Positions 2,626 to 29,099 of a stretch of DNA of 29,645 nt are shown here, piece by piece (positions within the stretch are counted from its first letter, which is position 1; each line of letters starts with the position of its first letter). A program made the translations under genes and the position numbers. The stretch is from positions 1 through 29,645 of IMG/VR virus record IMGVR_UViG_3300020198_001561; one strand, written 5' to 3'. The notes beneath the pieces were generated by a model, which was given only the letters and a program-made list of their open reading frames with translations, ran no database searches and had not been told where the DNA came from. The stretch is from a virus.

Positions 2626-4281
2626 ATGCTGACTCAGGCCCAGGTGGATGTCCTCATCCGGGCCGCGGCTCGCCGGCGCTCCGTCGAGGAGCGTCTCTCA
2701 GCGTCGTGGCTGGCCGTCAAGTACAGGCAGTACCTCGCTGGTGGGTGGACGCGCTCAGACGGCGTGGTCGCCAAGCCGCACGCAAAAGCTGCTGAGTTCC
2801 ATGAGGCCTGCAAGGATCCACTGCACCACACGTTTGTGATTGGCGGTGGGCGCCGCAGCAGCAAGACGTTCTCGGCCATGAGCGAGTTCTGCTCCTGGGT
2901 GCGCTACTACAGGCCCTGGGACATGACGCCCACGTGCCCCAAGGGCCCTGCGCGTCGCTGGCTGATCGTGGCTCCCAACTACAGCACCGCAGTTCCCGAC
3001 GTGATCGAGCCCTACCTGGACATCAGGCTGGGCGACCTCATCACGGACCGCGTCAGGAACCAGCAGAAGGCCTTGGTGACAGCCGTCCTCAAGGACGGGT
3101 CGATCATTCGCATCAACACCTTCGAGCAGTACCTGAAGATCGGGCGTGAGCAGACCTCCGTCTTCCAGTCAGGTCACTTCGACGGCGTGCTGCTCGACGA
3201 GGTGCCGCCGCGCGATGTCTGGATCGGCGTCAAGCGCGGCCTGGTCACGGGCAGGAGTCGCGGCTGGGGCAAGGCCATCATCGCGGCGACTCCCGACAAG
3301 GCCGAGTTCGGCTGGCTCTACGACGAGCTCTACTCCCGGGCCCACAACAAGGGCGGGCCGGACCGCGGCGTGTACGCCACGGAGTTTTCGATCTACGACA
3401 ACCCCGCCAACACGGACGAGGCCATCGAGTCCCTGGCCTCAGGCCTCTCCGACGAGGAGCGCGAGGCCGTGATCTACGGCCGGTTCCGGCACGTGACCGG
3501 GCGCGTCTACAAGACCTTCAACGAGGCGGTTCACGTGGCCCATTGGGACCCGCTCGTGGACGTGGATGGCTACGCGACCACCTGGCCGATCGTGATGGTC
3601 GTCGACCCAGCCTCCCGCAGGCCCTGGTACATGGCCTGGTTCGCCATGGACCCCAGCGGTGGCTACCACGCCGTCCGGGAGTGGCCCACGGACGACTTCG
3701 AGCGCATGCGCAACTGCGCCCTGGGCTGGGCCGACTACGCCAGGATCATCCAGGAGGTCGAGTCCACCATCCCCTGCAAGGGCAGGGATGGCATCGAGCG
3801 CACGGGCAGGGACCGCGTCCTCTGGAGGCGCATGGACCCGAACTACGGTCCGACGCCGTCCTCGGAGCAGGCCGGCAAGGTCATGGCCGAGATGCTTGAG
3901 GAGTGGGGCTACTACTTCGACACGGACATTATTGACAACATTCCCACAGGGCACATTGAGGTAAAGAAGTACCTGGCGCTGCCCAATGCCGGAATGCCGG
4001 TCTCAGATCTCAATATGCCAAAGTTCCTGATTCACGCCTCGGAAGCGCATCCCATGAGGAACTTGCGCTGGGGCATGAGCCACTACATTCACGACGAGCA
4101 CAGGGACGGCCAGAAGAGTCCCAAGGAAACACCACTTGACATCGGCAAGGACCAGGCCGATGTTGTCAGGTACCTCGTCATGAAGGAGGCCTGGTTCGTG
4201 AACTGGCTGGCCCGCAACGAGTCCTATTCCAAGATGCGTCTGGCGCGGCAGAAGCGCTTTGCCAGGAGTCGCCTTCAGTGA
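2626..4281 (+). CDS. terL: Terminase large subunit, 551 aa
   Basis: This is the ATPase/nuclease motor that cuts concatemeric DNA and pumps it through the portal. AGGAG (2613-2617) lies eight bases before the ATG. The Walker A motif is GGGRRSSKT (residues 73-81), Walker B is GVLLDE (187-192), and the coupling motif is AATPD (220-224). The segment YGRFRHVTGRVYKTF (284-298) joins the two domains, as is typical. The RNase H-like nuclease has candidate acidic residues D327 (VMVVDPAS), D404 (RRMDP) and D512 (KDQADVVRYL). The length is normal for the family. It overlaps the portal gene by four bases (GTGA). I cannot assign the packaging type (cos, headful or terminal repeat) from the sequence alone. 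Confidence 0.93.
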   Translation: MLTQAQVDVLIRAAARRRSVEERLSASWLAVKYRQYLAGGWTRSDGVVAKPHAKAAEFHEACKDPLHHTFVIGGGRRSSKTFSAMSEFCSWVRYYRPWDMTPTCPKGPARRWLIVAPNYSTAVPDVIEPYLDIRLGDLITDRVRNQQKALVTAVLKDGSIIRINTFEQYLKIGREQTSVFQSGHFDGVLLDEVPPRDVWIGVKRGLVTGRSRGWGKAIIAATPDKAEFGWLYDELYSRAHNKGGPDRGVYATEFSIYDNPANTDEAIESLASGLSDEEREAVIYGRFRHVTGRVYKTFNEAVHVAHWDPLVDVDGYATTWPIVMVVDPASRRPWYMAWFAMDPSGGYHAVREWPTDDFERMRNCALGWADYARIIQEVESTIPCKGRDGIERTGRDRVLWRRMDPNYGPTPSSEQAGKVMAEMLEEWGYYFDTDIIDNIPTGHIEVKKYLALPNAGMPVSDLNMPKFLIHASEAHPMRNLRWGMSHYIHDEHRDGQKSPKETPLDIGKDQADVVRYLVMKEAWFVNWLARNESYSKMRLARQKRFARSRLQ

Positions 4282-12541: not shown

Positions 12542-13588
12542 ATGGCGGCGACGAACCAGGGCCTGATGACCTTCGGTCAGCTGGCGGACGAGGTAGGCGT
12601 CCTGATCGAGGACAGCTCGGCCGGCAGGCGCCCGTCCATCAAGTCGTCCATCGCCAGGCTCTACGACGCGGCCTGCGCCGAGTCGGGCTTCTCGGGCCAG
12701 GACAAGGTGGACTCCTCGGGGCTGCGCAACGGCGCGTCTTCAGCCTCAACGATCAAGACCCTGGAGAACGGCGAGGCCGAGTTCCCGCTGCCCTACGGCG
12801 TGGGGCGCCTCAAGTCCCTGCACCACCAGTCGGTCCTCGCGGCCAGGACGCTCATTGGCGTCGACCCCCAGGAGCTCTTCGACCGCGCAGGCAGCGACCT
12901 CAACACGACTGGCACGCCTCTGTACTACGCCGAGGTCGGCTACACGGCCCAGTGGCGCCGGCTGTCGGCGGCCTCTGTCCTGACGGCCTACGCCTCACTG
13001 CCCAACAACGACGGCTCTAAGACGGTGAGGGTTGTCTTCAGGACCCAGGCGGCTTACACGGGCGAGACGCTCTACCATGACCTGACGGGGAGCTTCTCGA
13101 CTGGCCTGTCCCTGGCTGAGGGAGCGACCTTCGAGGCTGGGTGGCCGATCGAGTCCGTGTACCTGCCGCCGGCGTGGGTTGGCCGCTTCATGATCCAGAC
13201 AGGGTCCACGGAGATCGTGGACATCCGCGGCTGGGTCGCTCCGTCGACATCGAACACGGAGCTGGACAAGGCCTACAGGCGCAAGCTCATCCGTGTCTGG
13301 CCGGTCCCCAGCATGGACTACGGCCTGACGGTCACGTGGAGAAACGCTCCTCGGCGCCTGGCCCTTGAGTCGGACGTCATCGAGATCCCCGTGGCGGGGT
13401 ACCTGGTCCACGCCGCGGCGGCCGACGTGTTGACCACGATGGGCCTGCTCCAGAAGGCCTCGGTCCAGATGTCGCTGGCGATCAAGAAGCTGGAGGACAG
13501 CAAGAACCAGAACCTGCCCTCGACGAGCCGCAGCATGAGGCCGAAGTACAGGAACATGCTGGGCACCTCGGACATCCCACTATGGTGA
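12542..13588 (+). CDS. Putative head-tail connector/adaptor protein, 348 aa
   Basis: GGAGGT is six bases upstream of the ATG at 12542. The N-terminal 60 residues are helical (TFGQLADEVGVLIED, KSSIARLYDAAC). The middle is long and beta-rich. The end contains APRRLALESDVIEIPVAGYLVHAAAADVLTTMG (about residues 270-302) followed by a helix ending KKLED. The pattern of a proposed interface strand, then I-P-x-A-x-Y-L-x-x-x-AAA-D-x-L, then a helix with K-x-LE is typical of neck and adaptor proteins that bridge the portal and tail. The position before the beta-propeller tail protein fits. P22 gp4-like function is a reasonable inference, not a proven homology. Confidence 0.6.
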   Translation: MAATNQGLMTFGQLADEVGVLIEDSSAGRRPSIKSSIARLYDAACAESGFSGQDKVDSSGLRNGASSASTIKTLENGEAEFPLPYGVGRLKSLHHQSVLAARTLIGVDPQELFDRAGSDLNTTGTPLYYAEVGYTAQWRRLSAASVLTAYASLPNNDGSKTVRVVFRTQAAYTGETLYHDLTGSFSTGLSLAEGATFEAGWPIESVYLPPAWVGRFMIQTGSTEIVDIRGWVAPSTSNTELDKAYRRKLIRVWPVPSMDYGLTVTWRNAPRRLALESDVIEIPVAGYLVHAAAADVLTTMGLLQKASVQMSLAIKKLEDSKNQNLPSTSRSMRPKYRNMLGTSDIPLW

Positions 13589-16562: not shown

Positions 16563-17417
16563 ATGGGTGGCTTGAAGCCATACAAAGAAACGTACAAGAC
16601 GGCGCTGGACCAACTCCTGAGCCTTCCGGCCTTCATGAGCGGCTACCAGCTGATGCTCTCGATTGGGGAGGACCCCAACCAGTTCATCCTGGAGGGCAAG
16701 CAGGGCAAGAAGGCCATGAAGGCCGACCCTGCTGGGTGGGTCCCCCTCGGTGGTAAGCAGTACTTCGACATCAAGAGCTTCATGAAGGCCCAGCCCGGCT
16801 TCGCAGCCAAGATGCAGGAGCAGTCGGTCAAGGAGCTGCAGAACACCTACGAGCTGCTGGCCAAGACCCCGGCCTACGCCGGCATCTTCGGTGACGCCGC
16901 TGGCAACTTCAGCCCCGAGTTCTCCGCTGCCGTCGACCAGGGCTTCGGCCTCCTCGGCCAGCAGGCGGTCAACATGGCCTCGACCAAGGGGTTCATGTCC
17001 GATCCCAACATGCAGGCCATGGTCCTTGGGCCGCTGGCGATCCAGAAGGCGCAGTACCTCAAGGGCGTGAAGGACGCCGCGCAGCAGACGGCTTGGGGCC
17101 TGGCCGGGTCGGCCGGCTCCGCGGGCACCATCCCCTTCTACTCGTACACGGCGCCCAACCCTATGAGCTACGTGGGCCCGCTGATGAACTCCGTCAGCAT
17201 GCAGCAGCAGTTCGCCTTGCAGGAAGCGGCGATGGAGGCCCAGAAGAAGCAGTTCAACAAGCAGTTCTACGGTGACGTCTTCGGCTCGCTGGCAGGCATG
17301 GGCATGGGCATGTACGGGATGGGCCAGCAGATGGACATGTTCAACCAGTGGATGGGCTCGATGCCCAAGTCCTACACGCCCGGGTTTGGGCAGCCGCCAT
17401 GGGCTCCGCAACAGTGA
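16563..17417 (+). CDS. Putative internal virion (ejection) protein, 284 aa
   Basis: AAGGAG (16552-16557) sits five bases before the ATG. The N-terminal half is helical and charged. Residues 120-180 are long Ala/Gly/Met/Gln-rich amphipathic helices, and the C-terminus is very Met/Gly-rich (GSLAGMGMGMYGMGQQMDMFNQWMGSMP). Such Ala/Met/Gln/Gly-rich helical proteins lying between the tail hub and a giant protein are characteristic of ejection proteins that leave the head with the DNA and form a conduit in the envelope. No specific family is recognised, so the call rests on composition and position. Confidence 0.5.
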   Translation: MGGLKPYKETYKTALDQLLSLPAFMSGYQLMLSIGEDPNQFILEGKQGKKAMKADPAGWVPLGGKQYFDIKSFMKAQPGFAAKMQEQSVKELQNTYELLAKTPAYAGIFGDAAGNFSPEFSAAVDQGFGLLGQQAVNMASTKGFMSDPNMQAMVLGPLAIQKAQYLKGVKDAAQQTAWGLAGSAGSAGTIPFYSYTAPNPMSYVGPLMNSVSMQQQFALQEAAMEAQKKQFNKQFYGDVFGSLAGMGMGMYGMGQQMDMFNQWMGSMPKSYTPGFGQPPWAPQQ

Positions 17418-17425
17418 GGTGAGCA

Positions 17426-18538
17426 ATGGCCTTCTCTGACGCCTTCGCCTCTTCCTACAGCGCCCTGACGCAGGGCGCCAACTCGCGCTTCGGCATGCTC
17501 ATGGACATGGAGCGCCTGTCCATGCAGGCCGCCGAGCAGAGATACCTGGCCCACGAGCGCGCCAGGGTCCAGGGGATCCGCGACAACCTGCTCAAGACCT
17601 ATTCCGACAACCCCATCGTGCAGATGCTTGGCGGTGACCCGGACTCACTGATCCAGTTCGGCCAGGCCACGGGCCTGTTGCAGGAGGCCTTCAAGCCTGA
17701 GTCCCAGCGCCAGCGAGAACGCCTGGAGGAAAGGTTGGCCTTCGGCCAGGGCAAGGCCAACATCGCCGCCACGCGTGAGCAGACCCGCACCCTCGCCCAG
17801 CAGAGGAAGACGCTCGAAGCTCAGGAGAAGCAGGCCGCCGAGGCCCGGGACATGTGGTCGAAGATGACCAGCATGTTCACGGGCGCGCAGGCGGCCGTGG
17901 AGTCCCAGGCCTTCAAGGAGCAGAAGGCCTTCCAGGGCGTGCTGTCCGAGCTCGACAGCAAATACGGCGTGCGCCTGGCCCCCAAGGAGTGGGGGAGGGC
18001 CGTGCAGCTCATGCGCAGGTCTTTCGCTGAGTTCGCCAGCAGCCCCGAGGCAGCCAGCATCGCCGCCTTCGTGGGCCAGGATGCCATGCAGCAGCTGGGC
18101 CTCGACTACGCCATGGGGAAGCTGGTCTCCGAGTACAGCCCGGAGCCGGCCGACCCGAGCTTTACCGGCCTTCCAATGTTGCTGCCCGGCGGGCCTCCTC
18201 CCCCGTATGGGCCGGCGCTCTTGGCCCGCCCGCCCGTCCCCATGGGCGGCGCGTTTGGGCTGGCCGCGACAGCCATTGGCGCCGTGAACGAGCCCATGTC
18301 GGCTGGCGGGCATGGTGTCCTCGCCGGAGCTGAGCGCGCGGCCGAGTTCTTTAGCCGCGGCATCGGTGCGCTGCTGGTTGGCCGCGAGAAGTCCGGCTTC
18401 GACGAGATGCTCGTCTCGCGCGTCAATCGATACAACGAAATGCGCGAACAGCAGATGCGAGAGCGCGGGCGCGCGTGGCAGATCGAGCAGATCCTCAATC
18501 CGCCGCCGCCTGATCCCTTCATGGTTCCCATGTACTAA
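17426..18538 (+). CDS. Coiled-coil virion protein, putative ejection protein, 370 aa
   Basis: AGGT (17417-17420) lies five bases before the ATG. Residues 1-60 are helical. Residues 90-150 are a Gln/Arg/Glu-rich coiled coil (QRQRERLEERLAFG, EQTRTLAQQRKTLEAQEKQAAEARD). A helical core follows to about 235. A Pro/Gly linker (LLPGGPPPPYGP) leads to a hydrophobic Gly/Ala segment (GGAFGLAATAIGAVNEP) that could contact membrane, and a charged C-terminal helix ends PPPPDPFM. The layout fits an internal virion protein. The stop overlaps the next ATG (TAATG), so the neighbours are probably translated together. Confidence 0.5.
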   Translation: MAFSDAFASSYSALTQGANSRFGMLMDMERLSMQAAEQRYLAHERARVQGIRDNLLKTYSDNPIVQMLGGDPDSLIQFGQATGLLQEAFKPESQRQRERLEERLAFGQGKANIAATREQTRTLAQQRKTLEAQEKQAAEARDMWSKMTSMFTGAQAAVESQAFKEQKAFQGVLSELDSKYGVRLAPKEWGRAVQLMRRSFAEFASSPEAASIAAFVGQDAMQQLGLDYAMGKLVSEYSPEPADPSFTGLPMLLPGGPPPPYGPALLARPPVPMGGAFGLAATAIGAVNEPMSAGGHGVLAGAERAAEFFSRGIGALLVGREKSGFDEMLVSRVNRYNEMREQQMRERGRAWQIEQILNPPPPDPFMVPMY

Positions 18539-19650
18539 TGTCCTCCATCGACGCCTTCCTCAACCAGCCGATGGCCCCAAGGCCCCTGAACGGCGCCGGC
18601 ATCGCCCGGCGCGTCGAGCAGCGCGCCAGCGGCGAGCGGCTCCAGGGCGTCGCCCAGCCCCTTCAGCCCATCATGGACGTGCTCAGGGGCCTTGATCCTC
18701 AGAGCAGGGAGTTCGCCCGCCAGCTCTACAACCAGGCCTTCCAGGACGCCGACATCCCCTTCCAGATCCCGGACCTGGAGGAGATGGAGCTCGAACAGCT
18801 CAAGCGTCAGCGCGAGTCGTTGCAGTTGCGCCGCGACATCGCCAAGGAGACCGTGTTGCAGGTGGACGCTATCGTCAAGAGCATGCCCAAGGACTGGAAG
18901 CTCCGGAACGGCATCATGACAGACAACCTGCTCGACGAGAGCCCTGGAAAGTTCATTGAGGTGGCCCGTGGTCTGGAGTATGAGATCGACGCCCGCACGC
19001 TGGCACTTGGCGGCTTCGAGGAGTCGGACGCGGACGCTAGTGCAGCCACGGCTGAGAAGAAGTCCAAGATGGAGGCTGATGCCCTCAGCCGGGAGGCCGG
19101 CATGCTGCGTGACGCAGCCTCGATCAAGAAGGCCGGTGGTGACGTGTTCGTCCAGGAGGCGAAGAGGATCCTCAAGGAGGAGGAAGAGGCCATGGGCGTC
19201 GACCTCTTCTTCTTCGACACCGACATCGACGAGGTGGCCGGCGCCAGGGCGCTGCTCACAGCCTACGACAAGCTCATGCGCAGGACGCCTGTGGCCATGC
19301 GTCGCCGCGCCACGGAGTCGTTCATCAAGCTCAAGGGCGACGACATCCGCGACGTTCTCGAAGAGGCCGAGACGGACGAGCACGGCTCCATTAAGTTCGG
19401 TACCGGGAGCTGGGACGCGGATCCCGAAGCCATCTGGTTCGTTGGCGCGCTGACCCACCGCATGTCCCGGGAGCTGGGCAACCTCAGCGCCACGGACATC
19501 CTGTCCAAGTTGGGTGTTCCCGCCACGCAGTTCGACGAGGCCTCCTTCAAGGGTATGGGTGAGCAGATCGCAGCCGGGCTTGGGGAAGAGTTCGCCCAGA
19601 AGTTCTGGCCGGCGATCATGGGGCTCGATACCCAGTCGGAGGGCCTTTGA
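18538..19650 (+). CDS. Helical virion protein with +1 frameshift end, 370 aa (467 aa fused)
   Basis: The ATG at 18538 overlaps the previous stop. The zero-frame product is acidic and helical (LEEMELEQLKRQRESLQLRRD, then a central region with EADALSREAGMLRDA and AKRILKEEEEAMG). It ends with FAQKFWPAIMGLDTQSEGL. Its final codons are GAG-GGC-CTT-TGA-C, preceded by the anti-SD-like GGAGGG, a prfB-like +1 recoding site. Reading through in the +1 frame adds a 97-residue domain with a YDY...GHWPS signature, giving 467 residues. No family is recognised for the first 370 residues. From its position it is probably an ejection or internal head protein. If recoding is partial, both forms would be made. 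Confidence 0.65.
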   Translation: MSSIDAFLNQPMAPRPLNGAGIARRVEQRASGERLQGVAQPLQPIMDVLRGLDPQSREFARQLYNQAFQDADIPFQIPDLEEMELEQLKRQRESLQLRRDIAKETVLQVDAIVKSMPKDWKLRNGIMTDNLLDESPGKFIEVARGLEYEIDARTLALGGFEESDADASAATAEKKSKMEADALSREAGMLRDAASIKKAGGDVFVQEAKRILKEEEEAMGVDLFFFDTDIDEVAGARALLTAYDKLMRRTPVAMRRRATESFIKLKGDDIRDVLEEAETDEHGSIKFGTGSWDADPEAIWFVGALTHRMSRELGNLSATDILSKLGVPATQFDEASFKGMGEQIAAGLGEEFAQKFWPAIMGLDTQSEGL

Positions 19651-19651
19651 C
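19638..19651 (+). promoter_or_regulatory. Putative programmed +1 ribosomal frameshift site
   Basis: The sequence is GGAGGG (19638-19643), C, CTT (19645-19647), TGA stop (19648-19650), C. CTT-TGA-C is identical to the core of the bacterial prfB (release factor 2) +1 frameshift site, where an upstream Shine-Dalgarno-like element at short spacing and a slow UGA codon let tRNA-Leu slip from CUU to UUU. Here slippage gives GAC as the next codon and enters an open frame of 97 codons that encodes a recognisable phage domain. The spacing of the SD-like element (1-2 bases) is a little shorter than in E. coli prfB. Confidence 0.7.
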
Positions 19652-19942
19652 GATTCGCGGCGCCGCCTTCAGCAGTGGATGCAGGATCGCGGGATTGATC
19701 CGCGCGAGCTCGATGTCTACGACTATCGCGCGGCCATGATGGCGGGAGCCTCCCCGGATGCGAGTGGGCACTGGCCGTCGGAGTTCAAGCGGGACAACCA
19801 CCCGAATCTCGTCGTGGGCGGCTTCAACACGAAAACCGGCGCACGGGTGCCGGGGACGCCCCTCGCAAAGAGCGTGGATGAGCTGATTCGGTTGGGCTGG
19901 GAGCCGGAGGCGGCGAGGCAGCTATGGGAGTCGGTGAAGTAA
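19649..19942 (+). CDS. GHWPS-type phage domain, likely made by +1 frameshift, 97 aa
   Basis: The frame opens at GAC (19649-19651) after the proposed shift and ends with TAA at 19940-19942. Its sequence includes DSRRRLQQWMQDRGIDPRE, then YDYRAAMMAGA, then GHWPSEFKRDNHPN. The Y-D-Y/A-x-x-AG ... GHWPS-x-FK-x-x-x-HP signature is familiar from the ends of large phage structural and polyvalent proteins; its function is unknown. As a separate gene it would have to start at the ATG at 19679, which has no ribosome binding site and would cut into the domain, or inside the upstream gene near 19559. Codon use differs slightly from the head genes. Confidence 0.6.
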   Translation, partial: DDSRRRLQQWMQDRGIDPRELDVYDYRAAMMAGASPDASGHWPSEFKRDNHPNLVVGGFNTKTGARVPGTPLAKSVDELIRLGWEPEAARQLWESVK

Positions 19943-19961: not shown

Positions 19962-22900
19962 ATGACTGGCGGGGAGGTCATCAAACTCTTCGCCCAGGAT
20001 GCTCCGCCCAAGTTCCTTGACGCGAGCCTCCTCAAGCACGGCCTCAAGGTCGCAACGTACAAGACGCGGTCCTCCTCGGAGCCGCAGGGCTACCAGTGGG
20101 CTGACCTTGACGACGCGATGTTCAACGGGGACGGCTTCCGCTCCAAGGCCTTCGTCCCCAAGCAGTACGCCAAGGACCCTGAGCTGTTCTGGTACGGCCT
20201 GCCGCAGGTGGGCACCTACCTCAAGGGGCAGGGCGTCATCGACAGCGACGGCACGGCACTGCTCCTGGACATCGCCCTGGACCCCACGAACCTCCTGGCG
20301 CTCCCCGCCGGCCCTGTTCTCAAGGCGGCTACGGCAGGGCGCCTGGGGCTCACCAGGGCCGGTCAGATGGCCAAGGCGTTCACCTGGCTCTCGCGTGGCG
20401 GCGAGATCGAGGATGCGGCCAAGGCCGTGGATCGCGGCATTGGCGTCCTGGAGGAGGCCTGGAGGATCTCCTCCAAGGGGCCCGAGATCCTTGAGGCCGC
20501 CAAGTCCGGCAACCACAAGGCCATCAAGCGCATCGTGGATGGCGCCCGCAAGACAGGGACGCTGACGGCTGAGCAGGCCGACGAGCTCGCCAGCCTAAGG
20601 GCCAACCGCAAGCGGCTGACCACGATCTTCCAGCACGTGGATGACATCCGTCGCAAGGGCACCAAGCTGACGCCCGCAGACCTGCGCCAGCCCACGCTGA
20701 GGGAGTCGTTCCGCACTGGACAGATGGCCCCGCACCCCTTCGGCTTCATCGTCCCCAGGAATCCTCTCGCCAGGGGCGTGCCCTTCAAGCAGCGCGCCAA
20801 GTTCCTGGGCGAGATCGTGGGCTGGGAGTTCCAAGACACCAAGATCTACTTCCCCGCTGGCGACATCGTCTCCCAGGGCCTCGATGCCGTTGGCGCCGGG
20901 AACATCATGCGCATCGGCGAGAAGGAGTTCGCCAAGGACGCGCTGCGCTACAACAAGGTCATCGAGGCCGAGGAAGCGATTCGCGGCCAGTTCAAGACGC
21001 TGCCCAAGGAGCTGCGCGACTCGCGCTTCATGCCCGCCTGGCAGACGACCATGGCCATCCAGGCCATCAAGGTGGCCAATGGCACGCCCCTGGACCACGT
21101 GTCTATGGGCCTCGTTGGCCCACTCGACGAGAAGGTCTTGCGTGGTGAGTACAAGCGGCTTCACCAAATCCCCCTGGGCGTGTCGCTGACACAGGACGAC
21201 GAGTTTGGCAGGGGCTTCAAGGAGTACGTGAGGCAGCGCCGCGACGCCGAGCTGAGCGTGCAGGCTGGCGCCGACGGTCGCTCTGCGATGCGCAGGGACG
21301 TCATGCTCGACGGCATGGTGGGCGAGCTCGATGATCTCGTGGCCGCCAACAAGATGAGCGCTGCCGTGGCGACGGCGGCCCAGTCCCAGCTGCACAAGAT
21401 CGCCGAGACTCTGAGCCTCAAGCGCCTGGCCTGGGAGACGACCACCCCTGGTCAGGGCCTGGCCGCCAGGAGCTCGCTCATCAACCTGATGGCGCGCACG
21501 GTCAACAACAACATCCGCTATACGGTGAAGCGCGCCTACGGCACGGGCTGGAACAAGCGCCCCGTCCGCGAGGCCATCACGGATGTCATGAAGTCCGTGC
21601 TCGACCACCCCGACCTGTGGAAGCTCGGGGACGATGGGCGCTACAGGCTGATGGTCAACGCTGCCCAGGCGCGCGAGGCCGGCGCCGACTTCTTGGCGCA
21701 CTCGCTGGATGTAGCCCAGCGTAGGAAGCCCACGAGCGGTCTCTTCAAGCACCTCTCCGAGGAAGGCCTCGACGAAGAGGTCTCCTACATGCTGCGTCAC
21801 GTCTCCGACGCGCTGAAGGTCACGGGTGTCAACCTACTCGAAGCCCGTGTGGTGCGCGGCCTTCTCCAGAACTACTTCCCCCGCGTCTTCAAGCCCAACT
21901 CCGCGTTCTGGAAGATGGTCGGCAAGGACGTCCACCTCTCCGCCGCCATGGCCCAGCTGTTCGTCGGCGACGACAACGAGCGCGCCTTCCAGAAGCTGAT
22001 GGGCGAGAGCTACGGCGAGTTCACCCAGCGTGCCAAGGCCGGCCGCGTCACCCTCCAGGAAGTCAGGAGACTGACCGAGAAGGTGGCCATGGACCTGGAG
22101 CGCCGCGGTCTTGGCAAGTTCGAGCGCGACTCGGCCATCCTCCTGGGCGAGTACTTCTCCGCCTCGGGCAACGCCCTGCTGATGTCGCGGCTCTTCAACG
22201 ACCTGCCGCGCATGTCCGGGTTCCTGACTGAGACAGCGGTGGAGACGGCCCTTGGCCACGAGGCGGCGTCCAGGATCCCCAGGGATGCCTGGGGCCAGTG
22301 GCGCCGCGTCATGGAGTGGGATGACGCGCCCGAGGAAGCCAAGGGCATCTACAGGCGCGTGAGCGGTGAGGTTGTGGGCGATATCCCAGGCCTCTCCGAG
22401 GAGGCGTTGCGCGACGAGGCCCACCTCAAGTACCTGGACGCATGGGCGCGCAGCCCGGAGATGGCCAAGACCATCGAGCGTGAGAGCGCCAGGCTCCACA
22501 AGCTCGCTGAGACCGATCAGCTCGCGGCCATTAGGAATGGCATCAGGCTCATCGAAGGCTTGCGGCGCGAGGAGGAGCGGGTCCTCAGCCACGTCGCCAG
22601 ACTGGACCAGCGCGCCCTGGACCTAGCTCTCAAGGAGTCTGAGCTGGTCAAGGCCGCTCAGGGCGCGTCCCTGGATGCGCGCATCGCGGAGTGGAAGTCG
22701 GCCCTGGCCAAGTACAGGGGGACATTCGAGGCCTCGTGGAGCAAGCTGAACGAGATCGAGTTCAAGATCCTCCAGTACCAGGACCAGCTGGAGGACATCT
22801 CGCGGCACCGCGTGGCCCAGTACCTGTCCGGCAAGAAGGTCATCGGTGGGATCCGCCTCAAGCTCAACGGGAAGCAGGTGGCGTTCGATCCCAACTGGCT

Positions 22901-25900
22901 CCTCAGCGGGTCGTTCCCTGAGGGGCTGGAGGGCATCAAGGGCGTCAAGGACGCGGCCAAGAAGCTCGTCGCCGAGGAGCTGGCTAAGGAGCTCGACTCC
23001 GAGGTGGCCAAGCGCCTCAAGGCTGCGGTGGACAAGGTCAAGGAAGACCTCGACAAGATGCTTGTCAGGCTCAAGGAGCAGCGCGCTGCGTCTGCCCTGC
23101 GCCTCAGCAGGCGCGCGGAGGCCATTGGCAAGGCTGCTGAGCGCACGGCCAAGTCCGCGGTCAAGCGCGTCGAGGCCTTGAGGGCGATCGACGAGTCCCT
23201 GAAGGCATTCGAACCAGGGCCGCAGCTCCTGGATATCCGGCGCCGCTTTGACAAGCTGTTCAAGCCCATCGCCGAGCAGGAGGCCAGGGCGTCCTACTTG
23301 GCCAGGCAGGGCCGCAAGCTCGGGAAGTTCTCCGTGCGTGGGCGCCTGGCCTCTGTGCGCCACGAGATCCGAGAGCGTCTCGTCAAGGAGGCGGAGCGCG
23401 CCCAGGGCTTCCGCCGGCGCTCTGTCTGGGTCTTCGAGCCCGACTTCAAGTACCTCCAGGAGTCCTTCAGGCTCTACGAGCTCGGCCAGAAGGATAAGTT
23501 CTGGCGCGCCTACGACCTGTGGAACAGCAGGATCAAGGGCGTCGTCCTCCTGGGTGACATCTTCCACTTCAACACCCTGGCCGTGTCGTCCTTCCTGGCC
23601 AACCCCGAGGACCTCATCAAGGCCCTCTCGGACGACCTTGGGAACCTGTATCCAGAGGTGGACAAGAACCTGCTGGTCACCTTCTGGCGGCAGATGCCTG
23701 TGATCAAGGGCGCCGTGCTCGGCGCCGGGACTGGGGCAGCTGTCGGCGAGATGCGTGGCGGCGACAACGCCGAGGTCGGCACTGCGGCCCTCGTTGGCCT
23801 GCTCTATGGCGCCGTGATCGGGGCCGCCATGAAGCACGCGCGGCACGCCGGCGACATCGCCATGAACCCGGAGAACATCGAAACGCTGATGTGGATGGGA
23901 CTGGGTGGCTGGACGGGCCGTCCCGACGACCGCTCCATCGGCATCGTCAACAACAGCCTCAGGGCCCTGGCCAACAAGTGGCTCAGCGATTCGGGCACGG
24001 CCGGCCTTGGGTCCATCGCGGCGCGCATGGCCGAGGGCCTGGACCTGTGGGACGAGACGCTCTGGCAGACCCTGCACAACGGCTCCAAGCACTACTACTT
24101 CTCCCGCGTCTGGGAGAAGGAGCTGCCCAAGCTGATGAACAGCGAGCAGTGGTCGCAGGCCTTCCTGGAGCGTCAGTTCCGGGAGCTGCGCCAGCTGCCG
24201 CCTGAGGGTGGTGCGCCTGCTATCGAGCAGGGCCCGCGTCCTCCGCCTCCTCCCAGCGGTCCCATGCCGAGTCCGCGCGCTGGCGGCGTCGAGCTACGCT
24301 TCCAGCCCGTGCCCGTGCCGGCTGGTGCCGAGGGCAGTCTACGAGCACGTGGTTTCACGGAGCCGGTCAAGGACGCTGACGGCAAGATCACCGGGTTCAG
24401 GATCTACGTGGACCCGAACCTGCCTGAGCCCATCAAGGCCACGGTGCTTGGCCACGAGCTGGTCCACGTCGCCTTCAACAGCCTGCCCGTCGAGAGGCGC
24501 CTGGCCTACTTCGACGAACTGCGTGCCTACCTCGGCAAGGATGCCGACGAGCGCCTGCGCACGGTGGCCAAGAAGTGGGGCCTTGAGGGGTTCTATGAGA
24601 AGGCCGAGTGGAACCTGGCCGCTGCTGGCGAGGAGGTCCTGGCCGACGCTGGCTCGCTGGCCCTCATGGACCCTGGCTTCCTCAAGCACCTCAAGGACCG
24701 CGCCGACAAGCTCGGTAACAATGCGGAAGGCCTGGCCCTGCTCAAGGACTATGAGTCCCTCATCAGCAAGGTCAAGGACTGGGTGGACTGGGTCATTGCG
24801 CGCCTCAAGGACCTGGCCAGCTTCACGGCCCTGACGGCCTCGGGGTCTTCGGCCAGTGAGGCCCGGGGCCTTGCCGACATCGGCAAGAAGATCTTCAACG
24901 AGTACGCCGACATGCTCGACGCCAAGCAGCTCAGGGAGCTGGGCGGCGCCTTGGCCAACGCGGACCCGAAGTTCGCCGTGGGGCCTGCGCGCAAGGGTGT
25001 GCTCGTTCCTCTGTCCGCGTTCGCCGACCCGTCCATGAGCGGCGTTGGCGTCCAGCTCGGCTGGATCAGTCGTGGCGGCCTGCACTGGGAATCCCCTGGC
25101 GGCGCCGTGCGCTTCAACCGGCATGGCCTGGCCATCGACCTGTTCTCCAAGGACGGTATGGCCGAGGCTTCTCAGCTTGCTGCCGCCCTGCGCAAACCCG
25201 TGCGCAAGGATGCCGCGGCGCGTGTGGCCGACCCGATGTCGACGCGCATGCGCCTGGCCAACGCCGTGGACTGGCTGATCGAGCACGAGGATGCCCTTAA
25301 GGGCCTGCGCGGCAAGGGCCATGGCGCCACGCCACGCCTGTGGATCAGGGAGAACACCGAGACCGGCGACCTTGTGATCCACATGGGCAACAACCCCAGC
25401 TCCCCGAACTTCGTGTTCAAGAGCGGGCGGACCGAGCAGCGCGCTACGGCCGAGGCCTACCACGCCTCCATCGAGGACAACAAGGTTCGGGCCAAGGAAC
25501 TCGCCAGGGAGGCCGCTGAGCAGGCGCGCGTCGCTGAGCGCGAGGCCAAGGGTGTGCGCATGGGCCAGAAGAAGGCCCTGAAGGCCTCCAGGGAGGCGCG
25601 CGAAGACATCACCATTGAGCAGATTGCGAAGGAGCTCAAGGGCCTGGTCGAGGACCCGTCGGCCAGCGAGCTCGTCCCCCGCAAGGAGCTCGTGGACAAG
25701 GCCTTCAAGCGCCTGCTGGCCAAGGAGGCCAAGGGCGGCAAGCCCATCACCAAGGAGCGCTCGGTTGCGCTACTGGATGAGGCCAGGGACAGCGTTGTCA
25801 AGCGCATCGACAAGCTCCAGTCGCAGTACCAGGACATCACGGAGCGTGCCGCTGGCAGCAAGCAGGCCAGTGAGTTCGTTGGCGCTGAGGCCGACCTCAA

Positions 25901-28900
25901 GACGGAGGCGCGTGCTGCTGCCGATGAGGCGGACGAGGTCGTTGGCGGCGATGAGCTCGATCCCCTCGACGACATCAACGAGAGGGTCGGGGCCATCGAG
26001 ACCGAGGCTGCTGAGGTGGACGGTGAGATTGCTGACTACGTGGCCACGCATGTGGCCGACGAGGAAGCCGGTGCCAAAAAGGCCGGCGCCGAGGTCTCCG
26101 AGCGCGCGGCGGCCCTGATGCGCGACTCAGTCCATCTGCTCAAGCCGGACCTGCGTGAGGCCTGGGTGGCCGTGGCCCAGCCCGTCGAAGAGGGAGGGCG
26201 TGGCCTGACCAGGGCTGCTTACGCCAAGGAGCTGGGCAAGGCTGGCCAGGCTGGGAAGCACGCCGTCTCCGGCATGATCTACCAGGCACGCCGCCAGATG
26301 ATCGGCATCTTGCAGATCAATGAGCTGAAGGCCCTGCTCGGCGAGGCCGAGACACTGATGGACAACGCTGCCCGCGAGGTCGCTGATCTCCGGGCCGCAG
26401 GCGATGCTGCCGGTGCTGCCAAGAAGCAGGTGCTCGCCGAGAAGGCCGCCGAGTCCGCCCTCGCCCTTGATGACATGCTGCGCTCCACGGCCATCTCCAA
26501 GAACTACCCGCTGGAGATCGACCCCAAGTACGGACCGTCACGCATCCCCTACGGTGAGGGACTGCCCGAGTACGCACCCAAGTTCGACGTGGGCTACCAC
26601 GCCGGCGACCTCAAAGAGTCCGGCAGGTCACTGATCCATGCCGGAACCAAGGAGGTTGCGGCTGGCATCTGGGCGAAGTCAACGAGGGGCATCTACAAGA
26701 CCAAGGAGGAGTTCGACCCCTCTGCGTTCCTGAGGATGTACGACGACGGCGTTGCGCATACCCATACGCCGCACCTCGTGCTTGAGGGCATCGACCGGAT
26801 GTACGAGGCCGGATTTATTCCGGAGGGCTCTAACAAGAGGCAGCTTACAAAGGAGCAGGCCGCTGGGCTGAAGGCGCTGGCGGTTCGCCAGCGCAAGGAG
26901 TTCCTTGCGCTTGCACGTGGCGAGCTCCCTCAGGAGCTTCATGGGTTTCCTCACCCGGCTCATGAATTGCTCGCCGCCAAACACGAGGCCGAGATCGTCA
27001 AGGCGCTCACTGGCATGGGCTTCAACGGGATCGTTTACAGGAACATCTACGAGCTGCCTGCCAGGCGACTGGTCGCCGTGACAAGGCGCCGTGCCGAGGA
27101 TGCCTTGCGGCTCGCGGAGACAGAGGGCGCGGCCACCGCCGAACTCCGTGACGCGCGCATACGAGCCAGAGAGTTGCAGGCCCGCGCTGAATCACGGGCG
27201 GTTGGCAGGGACCCGATGCGCAATGCGCCCGACTCCTATATCCTCTTCAACAAGAAGGCCGCGGACTTCACGGGCTACCCGGCCGGCGAGGGCGACATGG
27301 CTGCGGTCATGGACCCCAAGTTCGACGTGGGCGGCGACGAACGGCCCATGCCAAGCTACCTTGTGCAGATGCGGGCGGAGAACAAGAAGAGGATCCTGCT
27401 CGCTGAGCAGGATGTGCCCGAGCTGCGCGGCAACGGCACAGAGGCTCTAAGCAAGGCCTCTGCCCTTATGAGGTTTATTGTTGACGACGGCGGCGAGCTG
27501 GGCGACGCCTTGGGCGAGACGCCGCCAGACATCATCCGCAAGGTGCTGTTGGAAAAGCACGTCACGCCAGAGCTGGCCGACAGGATCACCTCGGACATCA
27601 AAGACAGGGGCCTGGTTGCGGCCAGGCACTGGAGTAAGGCGCTGGAGTCGTACCAGCAAGACCTTGAGCGGGAGCTGTTTCATCAGAAGCAGGTGCTGCG
27701 CCTGCGCGAGCCCAAGTTCGACGTGGGCCCTGCCACGTACCCCGGCGACGATGAGCTGCGCAACACCAAGCGCCCGCCTGTCCCGCCGCGTGATGAGATC
27801 CCGCTGAGGAAGGGGATGGGCCCGCCGGACGATAGGTGGCTCAAGGGCGTGCCGCTCCACACGCAGGCTGGGCTGCGCTACTTCCAGCCGCCCAGTATGT
27901 ACGGTGGCCCGCGAGGCGGGCGCGGCGACTTCCGACACATACCGCCGCTGGCGAGGACCGTCAGGAAAGAAGACGGCAGGGTCCTGCGCCTCCCGCTGCA
28001 CGACAAGGCCTCGCTGTTCAAGACCAAGCGCGGCCATGGCCCAGACAGCTGGGGGCCGCACTGGGACGTGGGCCCCAACCCATCCGAGCTCAGAGAGTAC
28101 GTGGCCAAGCAGCGCCACCTCATGAAGCAGGACCTGGCCAAGCAGATCGTCCATGCCAGCAACACCATCTTCGGCGGCTTGCACTGGGCCGAGATGCTCA
28201 ACAACCCGCAGTTCCAGCACTCGCTGAGGCGCTTCCTGCTTTCGCCTGACTGGACCCTGTCGCGCCTGGAGATGACCTCGTCCTTCGTGGCGCAGCTGGA
28301 CCACCCCGCCAAGGCTGCCGCCCTGGGCGCCGGCGTGGGCCAGGCCGTCGAGCTTGCCGACGCCGGCTTCCATCCGACCAACGAGGACGGTGAGCGCCAC
28401 GGCATCACGGGCCGTGGCCCGGTCTTCGGCGCCCTGGGTGCCGTGGCCCTGCACAAGTGGGCGCAGGGGATCCAGAAGCGCATGAACACCAAGGGCGATG
28501 TCTACGCCCGCAAGGCTGGGCGCCTCCAGGCGACGGCCCTGGTGGCCGGCTACGTCTTTGCCAACCTGCTCAACAAGGCCTTCACCGACAGGTGGATGTT
28601 CGAGAACGAGGAGGGCAAGCGCACCTCCGTGGCCATCGGTGACGGGGACTACATCGGGCTGGGCAAGCCCTGGGTCGAGGCCTTCGAGTTCGGCTCCTTC
28701 CTGGAGCCGGAGAAGTACCCGCTGCCCATGGTCTCGCGTGCGGTCAGCAAGGGCGCCTCGATCCCTGTCAACGCCATCCGCCTGTTCTCCAACAGCAACT
28801 ACTTCGGCGGCCCCATCTTCGAGGCCACGGACTCGCCAGGTGAGGTCGGCTACAAGCTCTTCGACTTCACCGTGGATGCCGCCGTACCCATCATGTTCCA

Positions 28901-29099
28901 GGGCCCGACCCGCTACGGCAGGGCGCTCCTCTCCGGCGAGCCCGCTACGGGCCGGGACACCTCAGTGGCACTCATGCGCGGCTTCGGCATGAGGGTCTTG
29001 TCACCCCGTAGACCAGAGGCCGGCAGCCTTGCCGACATCATGGCCGGCCTCGGCGTCACCCCGCCCAGAGACCTGGCCTCAGCACTCGGAGATTTGTGA
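19962..29099 (+). CDS. Giant polyvalent virion protein, 3045 aa
   Basis: GGGGGT lies about six bases before the ATG. From the N-terminus: residues 1-880 are helical and unrecognised; 880-1170 are long coiled coils; 1165-1410 are a helical domain with IKGVVLLGDIFHFNT and a Gly/Ala zipper (about 1250-1296) that may enter membrane; 1413-1445 is a Pro-rich linker. A zincin motif HELVH (H1498, E1499, H1502) follows, with E1557 or E1558 as likely third ligand. Residues about 2060-2117 look helix-turn-helix-like. Residues 2212-2440 have an ART-like YHAGD ... GFNGIVYRN ... DSYILF pattern. The C-terminal domain carries FGGLHW (2737) and SPDWT (to 2765). PKFDVG-like motifs occur at 1669, 2206, 2452, 2584 and 2699. 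Architecture and position indicate an injected multi-effector ejection protein. Confidence 0.8.
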   Translation: MTGGEVIKLFAQDAPPKFLDASLLKHGLKVATYKTRSSSEPQGYQWADLDDAMFNGDGFRSKAFVPKQYAKDPELFWYGLPQVGTYLKGQGVIDSDGTALLLDIALDPTNLLALPAGPVLKAATAGRLGLTRAGQMAKAFTWLSRGGEIEDAAKAVDRGIGVLEEAWRISSKGPEILEAAKSGNHKAIKRIVDGARKTGTLTAEQADELASLRANRKRLTTIFQHVDDIRRKGTKLTPADLRQPTLRESFRTGQMAPHPFGFIVPRNPLARGVPFKQRAKFLGEIVGWEFQDTKIYFPAGDIVSQGLDAVGAGNIMRIGEKEFAKDALRYNKVIEAEEAIRGQFKTLPKELRDSRFMPAWQTTMAIQAIKVANGTPLDHVSMGLVGPLDEKVLRGEYKRLHQIPLGVSLTQDDEFGRGFKEYVRQRRDAELSVQAGADGRSAMRRDVMLDGMVGELDDLVAANKMSAAVATAAQSQLHKIAETLSLKRLAWETTTPGQGLAARSSLINLMARTVNNNIRYTVKRAYGTGWNKRPVREAITDVMKSVLDHPDLWKLGDDGRYRLMVNAAQAREAGADFLAHSLDVAQRRKPTSGLFKHLSEEGLDEEVSYMLRHVSDALKVTGVNLLEARVVRGLLQNYFPRVFKPNSAFWKMVGKDVHLSAAMAQLFVGDDNERAFQKLMGESYGEFTQRAKAGRVTLQEVRRLTEKVAMDLERRGLGKFERDSAILLGEYFSASGNALLMSRLFNDLPRMSGFLTETAVETALGHEAASRIPRDAWGQWRRVMEWDDAPEEAKGIYRRVSGEVVGDIPGLSEEALRDEAHLKYLDAWARSPEMAKTIERESARLHKLAETDQLAAIRNGIRLIEGLRREEERVLSHVARLDQRALDLALKESELVKAAQGASLDARIAEWKSALAKYRGTFEASWSKLNEIEFKILQYQDQLEDISRHRVAQYLSGKKVIGGIRLKLNGKQVAFDPNWLLSGSFPEGLEGIKGVKDAAKKLVAEELAKELDSEVAKRLKAAVDKVKEDLDKMLVRLKEQRAASALRLSRRAEAIGKAAERTAKSAVKRVEALRAIDESLKAFEPGPQLLDIRRRFDKLFKPIAEQEARASYLARQGRKLGKFSVRGRLASVRHEIRERLVKEAERAQGFRRRSVWVFEPDFKYLQESFRLYELGQKDKFWRAYDLWNSRIKGVVLLGDIFHFNTLAVSSFLANPEDLIKALSDDLGNLYPEVDKNLLVTFWRQMPVIKGAVLGAGTGAAVGEMRGGDNAEVGTAALVGLLYGAVIGAAMKHARHAGDIAMNPENIETLMWMGLGGWTGRPDDRSIGIVNNSLRALANKWLSDSGTAGLGSIAARMAEGLDLWDETLWQTLHNGSKHYYFSRVWEKELPKLMNSEQWSQAFLERQFRELRQLPPEGGAPAIEQGPRPPPPPSGPMPSPRAGGVELRFQPVPVPAGAEGSLRARGFTEPVKDADGKITGFRIYVDPNLPEPIKATVLGHELVHVAFNSLPVERRLAYFDELRAYLGKDADERLRTVAKKWGLEGFYEKAEWNLAAAGEEVLADAGSLALMDPGFLKHLKDRADKLGNNAEGLALLKDYESLISKVKDWVDWVIARLKDLASFTALTASGSSASEARGLADIGKKIFNEYADMLDAKQLRELGGALANADPKFAVGPARKGVLVPLSAFADPSMSGVGVQLGWISRGGLHWESPGGAVRFNRHGLAIDLFSKDGMAEASQLAAALRKPVRKDAAARVADPMSTRMRLANAVDWLIEHEDALKGLRGKGHGATPRLWIRENTETGDLVIHMGNNPSSPNFVFKSGRTEQRATAEAYHASIEDNKVRAKELAREAAEQARVAEREAKGVRMGQKKALKASREAREDITIEQIAKELKGLVEDPSASELVPRKELVDKAFKRLLAKEAKGGKPITKERSVALLDEARDSVVKRIDKLQSQYQDITERAAGSKQASEFVGAEADLKTEARAAADEADEVVGGDELDPLDDINERVGAIETEAAEVDGEIADYVATHVADEEAGAKKAGAEVSERAAALMRDSVHLLKPDLREAWVAVAQPVEEGGRGLTRAAYAKELGKAGQAGKHAVSGMIYQARRQMIGILQINELKALLGEAETLMDNAAREVADLRAAGDAAGAAKKQVLAEKAAESALALDDMLRSTAISKNYPLEIDPKYGPSRIPYGEGLPEYAPKFDVGYHAGDLKESGRSLIHAGTKEVAAGIWAKSTRGIYKTKEEFDPSAFLRMYDDGVAHTHTPHLVLEGIDRMYEAGFIPEGSNKRQLTKEQAAGLKALAVRQRKEFLALARGELPQELHGFPHPAHELLAAKHEAEIVKALTGMGFNGIVYRNIYELPARRLVAVTRRRAEDALRLAETEGAATAELRDARIRARELQARAESRAVGRDPMRNAPDSYILFNKKAADFTGYPAGEGDMAAVMDPKFDVGGDERPMPSYLVQMRAENKKRILLAEQDVPELRGNGTEALSKASALMRFIVDDGGELGDALGETPPDIIRKVLLEKHVTPELADRITSDIKDRGLVAARHWSKALESYQQDLERELFHQKQVLRLREPKFDVGPATYPGDDELRNTKRPPVPPRDEIPLRKGMGPPDDRWLKGVPLHTQAGLRYFQPPSMYGGPRGGRGDFRHIPPLARTVRKEDGRVLRLPLHDKASLFKTKRGHGPDSWGPHWDVGPNPSELREYVAKQRHLMKQDLAKQIVHASNTIFGGLHWAEMLNNPQFQHSLRRFLLSPDWTLSRLEMTSSFVAQLDHPAKAAALGAGVGQAVELADAGFHPTNEDGERHGITGRGPVFGALGAVALHKWAQGIQKRMNTKGDVYARKAGRLQATALVAGYVFANLLNKAFTDRWMFENEEGKRTSVAIGDGDYIGLGKPWVEAFEFGSFLEPEKYPLPMVSRAVSKGASIPVNAIRLFSNSNYFGGPIFEATDSPGEVGYKLFDFTVDAAVPIMFQGPTRYGRALLSGEPATGRDTSVALMRGFGMRVLSPRRPEAGSLADIMAGLGVTPPRDLASALGDL
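26577..26594 (+). repeat. 18-base direct repeat, copy 1 (encodes PKFDVG)
   Basis: The 18 bases CCCAAGTTCGACGTGGGC encode P-K-F-D-V-G and recur exactly at 27315-27332 and 27711-27728. Diverged copies at 24966 (PKFAVG) and 28056 (PHWDVG) keep the protein pattern but not all bases. This copy is directly before the ADP-ribosyltransferase-like domain. Confidence 0.85.
27315..27332 (+). repeat. 18-base direct repeat, copy 2 (encodes PKFDVG)
   Basis: Exact copy of the repeat at 26577-26594, in the same reading frame of the giant gene. It closes the ADP-ribosyltransferase-like module and opens a short helical segment. Confidence 0.85.
27711..27728 (+). repeat. 18-base direct repeat, copy 3 (encodes PKFDVG)
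   Basis: Exact copy of the repeat at 26577-26594, again in frame. It separates a helical segment from a Pro-rich, low-complexity linker that leads to the C-terminal domain. Confidence 0.85.

Follow-up and report, generated by a model that had tools for sequence, protein, structure and literature searches.

A candidate prfB-type +1 frameshift site that may append a mobile GHWPS domain to a probable virion protein of an uncultivated phage

A programmed +1 frameshift of the kind found in prfB, the gene of release factor 2 (RF2), is the best single explanation for the junction between a 370-codon phage gene and the conserved GHWPS domain that continues in its +1 frame, an explanation which is read on one metagenomic contig and to which we assign about an even chance. 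It is favored because all local features except the spacing of the Shine-Dalgarno (SD)-like element fit, in what is a single sequence.

The Contig and its Gene Layout

The window, i.e., the whole stretch of DNA analyzed, is the uncultivated virus record IMGVR_UViG_3300020198_001561 (29,645 bases), which has the layout of a short-tailed phage. Genes for terminase (2626), portal (4278), a scaffold-like protein (7186) and the major capsid protein (8225) are followed by tail genes and then by the genes at 16563, 17426, 18538, and 19962; profile matches were obtained for terminase, head-tail adaptor, and major head. Assigned by gene order only, the last four genes are a probable ejection-protein cluster, within which no family match to known ejection proteins was found. 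The 370-aa product of the gene at 18538, the last one ahead of the GHWPS segment, is without database homologue. The gene that follows the segment directly encodes a giant virion-type protein of 3045 aa and carries a strong SD of its own (GGGGGTGA). In this giant protein, HELVH (HEXXH) at residue 1498 (window 24453-24467), followed by AAGEEVLAD, resembles a zinc-peptidase-like motif, a reading for which no backing Pfam or PHROG match was found. The features of the region are as follows.

18538..19650, + strand: upstream zero-frame gene, 370 aa
19638..19643, + strand: SD-like GGAGGG, of which GGAGG (19638-19642) ends 2 nt before CTT
19645..19651, + strand: CTT_TGA_C, prfB-type +1 slippery stop (CTT 19645-19647, TGA 19648-19650)
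19649..19942, + strand: +1 frame segment with the GHWPS domain, 97 codons, first codon GAC 19649, stop codon 19940-19942
18538..19942, + strand: predicted recoded fusion product (P0003), 467 aa, one base skipped at CTT_T
19679..19681, + strand: ATG without SD, the only ATG, GTG or TTG that the domain frame offers after the upstream stop and ahead of the conserved core
19962..29099, + strand: gene of the giant 3045-aa virion-type protein

The Junction and the SD-like Element

The upstream gene ends in TCG GAG GGC CTT TGA C, as the sequence-only reading had it (GGAGGG-C-CTT-TGA-C, 19638-19651), and the +1 frame does stay open for the 97 codons that had been claimed. CTT_TGA_C is the prfB-type +1 slippery stop (PMC12421855, PMC3711429); the site of E. 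coli prfB reads AGGGGGUAUCUUUGAC (PMC8710568), and the SD-like run of prfB sites is near-universally kept 3 nt from CTT (PMC5009743, PMC12421855). In the window, the slippery CTT_T lies directly ahead of the in-frame TGA and a C, and from this site the +1 frame continues as conserved coding sequence. An SD-like AGGGGG or GGAGG exactly 3 nt from CTT is absent; the GGAGG is strong and sits at 2 nt. Of the earlier proposal of a prfB-type site with its SD-like element, the heptamer and the strong GGAGG were confirmed; the spacing differs from that of prfB by one nucleotide.

The predicted pairing with the anti-SD amounts to -10.0 kcal/mol, compared with -10.7 for E. coli prfB, and a pairing at least as strong is found upstream of 144 of 8734 codons in the phage (1.6%). 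In all DNA examined, CTT TGA C terminates 3 of the 649 ORFs with a length of 200 codons or more, and the window site is the only one of these three with GG[AG]GG upstream. The joint chance of CTT TGA C and strong pairing is ~1e-4 per gene end, or about 0.2% for the window; a coincidence at the junction is thus unlikely in one window, yet expected occasionally across a scan of many windows. It should be added that chance alone puts GGAGG at spacing 2 (0.6% of the phage's codons) more often than GG[AG]GG at spacing 3 (0.09%), a roughly six-fold ratio in the codon phase of this phage. No downstream stimulatory structure was evident at the junction (z = +1.05), and Rfam gave no match.

Frame Switch and Start Codons

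Around position 19650, GC content by codon position passes from frame 1 to frame 2. With a codon-usage model for which the other genes of the phage served as training set, the best switch point fell at 19643-19649 (log-likelihood 55.9-56.0). Keeping frame 1 until ATG 19679, with the stretch past the stop assigned to frame 1, gave 49.8, and a switch at GTG 19559 or TTG 19580 gave 29-31. The ten codons from the stop to ATG 19679 score weakly positive in frame 2 (+2.7). This ATG lies ten codons past the stop and 29 nt after it; if it were used as a start, the domain would lose its residues 1-10. GTG 19514, GTG 19559, and TTG 19580 share the domain frame deep inside the upstream gene, with AAGGG 5 nt ahead of GTG 19559. 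ACG and ATT near 19650 were considered as alternative starts and rejected, being out of the domain frame.

The GHWPS Domain

The YDYR...GHWPS...FK...HP signature noted from the letters alone is present in the +1 frame and belongs to a conserved domain. The window copy has the motif set F..WY, YDYRAA..AG, GHWPS.FK, and HP together with a compact fold; F7 is replaced by Leu and Y11 by Met, while W10 is kept. F7, W10, YDYR, GHWPS, and HP show next to no variation across 41 members. In an AlphaFold model of the domain, built with 41 sequences and reaching pLDDT 91, helix 1 spans residues 2-13 of the +1 frame, so that the start of the domain coincides with the recoding site; a model of the fusion from the single sequence was unusable (pLDDT 53) and was discarded. 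M11, encoded by ATG 19679, lies near the end of helix 1, and a start there would lose most of this helix, including W10. The earlier statement that the domain has no good start codon holds in so far as this ATG lacks an SD and cuts helix 1, but an ATG does exist in frame.

In IMG/VR, 16 domain-coding loci were found in the first scan and 94 subsequently. Among 69 distinct copies, 32 form the N-terminus of a large protein, 28 stand alone, three are C-terminal, and six are otherwise placed. The closest copies (L042-L044, 51-57% identity, matching through the C-terminal LGWEPEAA segment) are in-frame parts of giant proteins. Standalone genes encode about 90-150 aa, often sit just ahead of other genes, and start before the F..WY helix, with the exceptions of L120 and the stop-interrupted L107; because 28 of the 69 copies are such small genes, fusion is dispensable for the function of the domain. 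In L107 (2950-2962), an in-frame TAA (TGG TAA GCA) occupies exactly the W-Y position of the family, either as a point mutation or as a recoded stop codon. In L006 (7957-8000), the GTG start of the GHWPS gene overlaps (GTGA) the stop of an 8-codon mini-ORF (MAYTSGTL*), which suggests translational coupling or an indel.

The GHWPS domain (~95 aa) is mobile, unnamed, and widespread among uncultivated phages; it occurs standalone, at the N-terminus of giant proteins or at the C-terminus of the preceding protein. It was not found in cultured phages, in prokaryote genome contigs (exact GHWPSEFK pattern only) or in plasmids (with the fusion as query). It had no PHROG match, the window copy had no Pfam match either, and its fold matched nothing in the PDB and only weakly some viral models. 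No match to RF2 or any other family was obtained for the 370-aa part, the domain or the fusion; the locus is not prfB itself.

Relatives and Gene Neighborhoods

Relatives of the phage were sought by terminase, portal, and the 370-aa protein, and only L040 (65% terminase identity, 13.6 kb), L041, and L122 (31-32%) were recovered, all of which end before the site or are without the domain; none has the site. Neither viral contigs nor cultured phages contained a homologue of the 370-aa protein; cultured phages and plasmids gave no match to the gene or the domain, only distant terminase and portal matches. When 2.9 million viral contigs were scanned for CTTTGAC with YDYR 45-75 nt downstream, 21 matches were returned, none of them a frameshifted GHWPS domain. 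GHWPS genes with starts of their own do exist, none of them related to the window gene.

A comparable arrangement is seen in L121, with a 394-aa gene, a 529-aa gene with a C-terminal in-frame GHWPS domain and then a giant gene; in L060, with 239 aa, 334 aa, 504 aa with an internal GHWPS domain and then a large gene; and in L008, with 344 aa, 383 aa, and 478 aa with the domain C-terminal and in frame. The window series 284, 370, 370(+97), 3045 matches this pattern if the frames are joined, and the predicted 467-aa fusion comes close to the 478-529-aa in-frame fusions of L121 and L008, by which the proposal of a 467-residue fusion is supported. No other GHWPS domain carries the site. In many other phages, the domain begins the giant gene, and there, too, a third gene of 370 aa is of normal length. 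Homology of the 370-aa protein to the N-terminal parts of the L121, L060, and L008 proteins was not detected. Synteny thus supports the fusion without proving it, since 370 aa fits both patterns and the third genes lack sequence homology.

Proposed Recoding and Alternative Explanations

According to the recoding proposal, the majority of ribosomes would end translation at the UGA (19648-19650), with the 370-residue protein as product. Some would pause with peptidyl-tRNA-Leu on CUU, and the 16S anti-SD, by pairing with GGAGG(G), would pull the mRNA, such that the tRNA re-pairs one base downstream (UUU), T19648 is skipped, and translation resumes at GAC in the +1 frame. The 97-residue GHWPS domain would thereby be appended, and a minor product of 467 residues would result. 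The short and the long product are probably both virion (ejection-complex) proteins, a role assigned by inference. That ribosomes shift here, how frequently they do so, and that release factor 2 levels are of relevance, we infer. Counted in favor of recoding were the exact CTT_TGA_C with adjacent strong anti-SD pairing, the codon-usage switch, the domain boundary, in-frame fusions elsewhere, the ~27 kb of other coding sequence without frameshift, and the phage precedent of +1-appended virion domains; counted against it were the 2-nt spacing and its commoner chance phase, the absence of the site from other GHWPS domains, the standalone copies, the lack of downstream structure, and the single metagenomic contig.

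The weights given to the different readings are judgements, not computed values. It is rather unlikely that the GHWPS segment forms a small gene of its own, with translation by termination-reinitiation at ATG 19679 or from a start at GTG 19559, and that CTTTGAC and GGAGG are present by coincidence. Standalone copies are common (28 of 69) and frequently precede other genes, this phage has further genes with weak SDs, e.g., at 13582 and 18538, and GTG 19559 has its AAGGG 5 nt upstream; however, a separate start is disfavored because the helix would be lost and an SD is missing, ATG 19679 dropping residues 1-10 while the conserved helix comprises residues 2-13 with W10. GTG 19559 or TTG 19580 would require an overlap of more than 70 nt without coding signal (29-31 versus 56 at the site), and other standalone copies, apart from the two exceptions above, begin before the F..WY helix. 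Slightly less probable still is an indel, in the contig or the real genome, whereby a single gene of 467 codons is broken by one extra base, or a standalone gene by the loss of one base. The standalone gene would begin at TTG 19647, in overlap with the stop, and would have GGAGGG as its SD. In-frame C-terminal fusions in L121 and L008, the good placement of GGAGGG for such a TTGA-overlap start, and the use by this phage of start/stop overlaps (GTGA/ATGA) at 4278, 6581, and 10470 are in line with this explanation, as is the reliance on a single contig. Yet it is disfavored because coding is intact over the other ~27 kb, which includes a 9.1-kb ORF, and because a random event would rarely place CTT_TGA_C, an SD, and a stop exactly at the switch point with no overlap. 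Any other explanation is considered very improbable. The readings predict different tryptic peptides, namely FWPAIMGLDTQSEGLDDSR for the recoded, FWPAIMGLDTQSEGL for the terminated, and MQDR... for the reinitiated product.

Comparison with Known Systems

The window site shares with prfB the CTT_TGA_C, the zero-frame UGA, a purine-rich SD-like element just upstream, and the +1 continuation; its SD register is 1 nt closer. Whereas the prfB site lies near codon 26, the window site ends a 370-codon phage gene, and unlike in prfB the +1 product would gain a C-terminal domain, with no obvious autoregulatory logic. As a class assignment, the proposed recoding is of the prfB kind in a gene that is not prfB, at a site outside the strict spacing of that class. 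Every CUU-stop +1 site in RECODE belongs to prfB (PMC10885494), and the literature searched contained no report of a CUU-stop +1 site in a phage virion or ejection gene. Virion domains appended by +1 frameshifting are known from tsh of the Listeria phages PSA, A118, and A500, where the tsh shift occurs at CCC_UGA, and from PSA cps; in other phages, such extensions of virion proteins occur in frame (PMC5009743). Like the window gene, these are phage structural genes with a +1 slip at a stop-adjacent codon (tsh) and a minor C-terminally extended product, but they have a CCC slippery codon, a pseudoknot instead of an SD in cps, concern major capsid and tail proteins, and were demonstrated experimentally.

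The GHWPS proteins of uncultivated phages (L042, L044, L121, L008, and others) share the domain at 30-57% identity and a similar neighborhood; unlike in the window, their copies either open a giant protein in frame, stand alone with a start of their own or form an in-frame C-terminus, and the frameshift site is seen in none of them. The ejection proteins of podoviruses comprise gp7, gp16, and gp20 of P22, gp14-16 of T7, and those of N4 and DEV with a giant vRNAP. As in the window, a virion-protein cluster and then a giant protein come after the tail genes; no sequence homology to the window proteins was found, whose assignment is by gene order only.

Significance

It is possible, if on balance doubtful, that this phage adopted the RF2 slippery stop outside prfB and so equips some of the copies of one virion protein with a mobile domain, in a ratio tied to the host RF2 level and with a functional 2-nt SD spacing. 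If true, the junction would be a variant of the already known frameshift-appended virion domains of phages. A functional site in a structural gene of a phage would mean that the RF2 recoding cassette is usable outside prfB, the composition of the virion would be coupled to the host's release-factor supply, and the site could serve as a natural experiment on whether the +1 slip still takes place with an SD gap of 2 nt. It would also be a caution that domains appended at such junctions are overlooked by gene callers.
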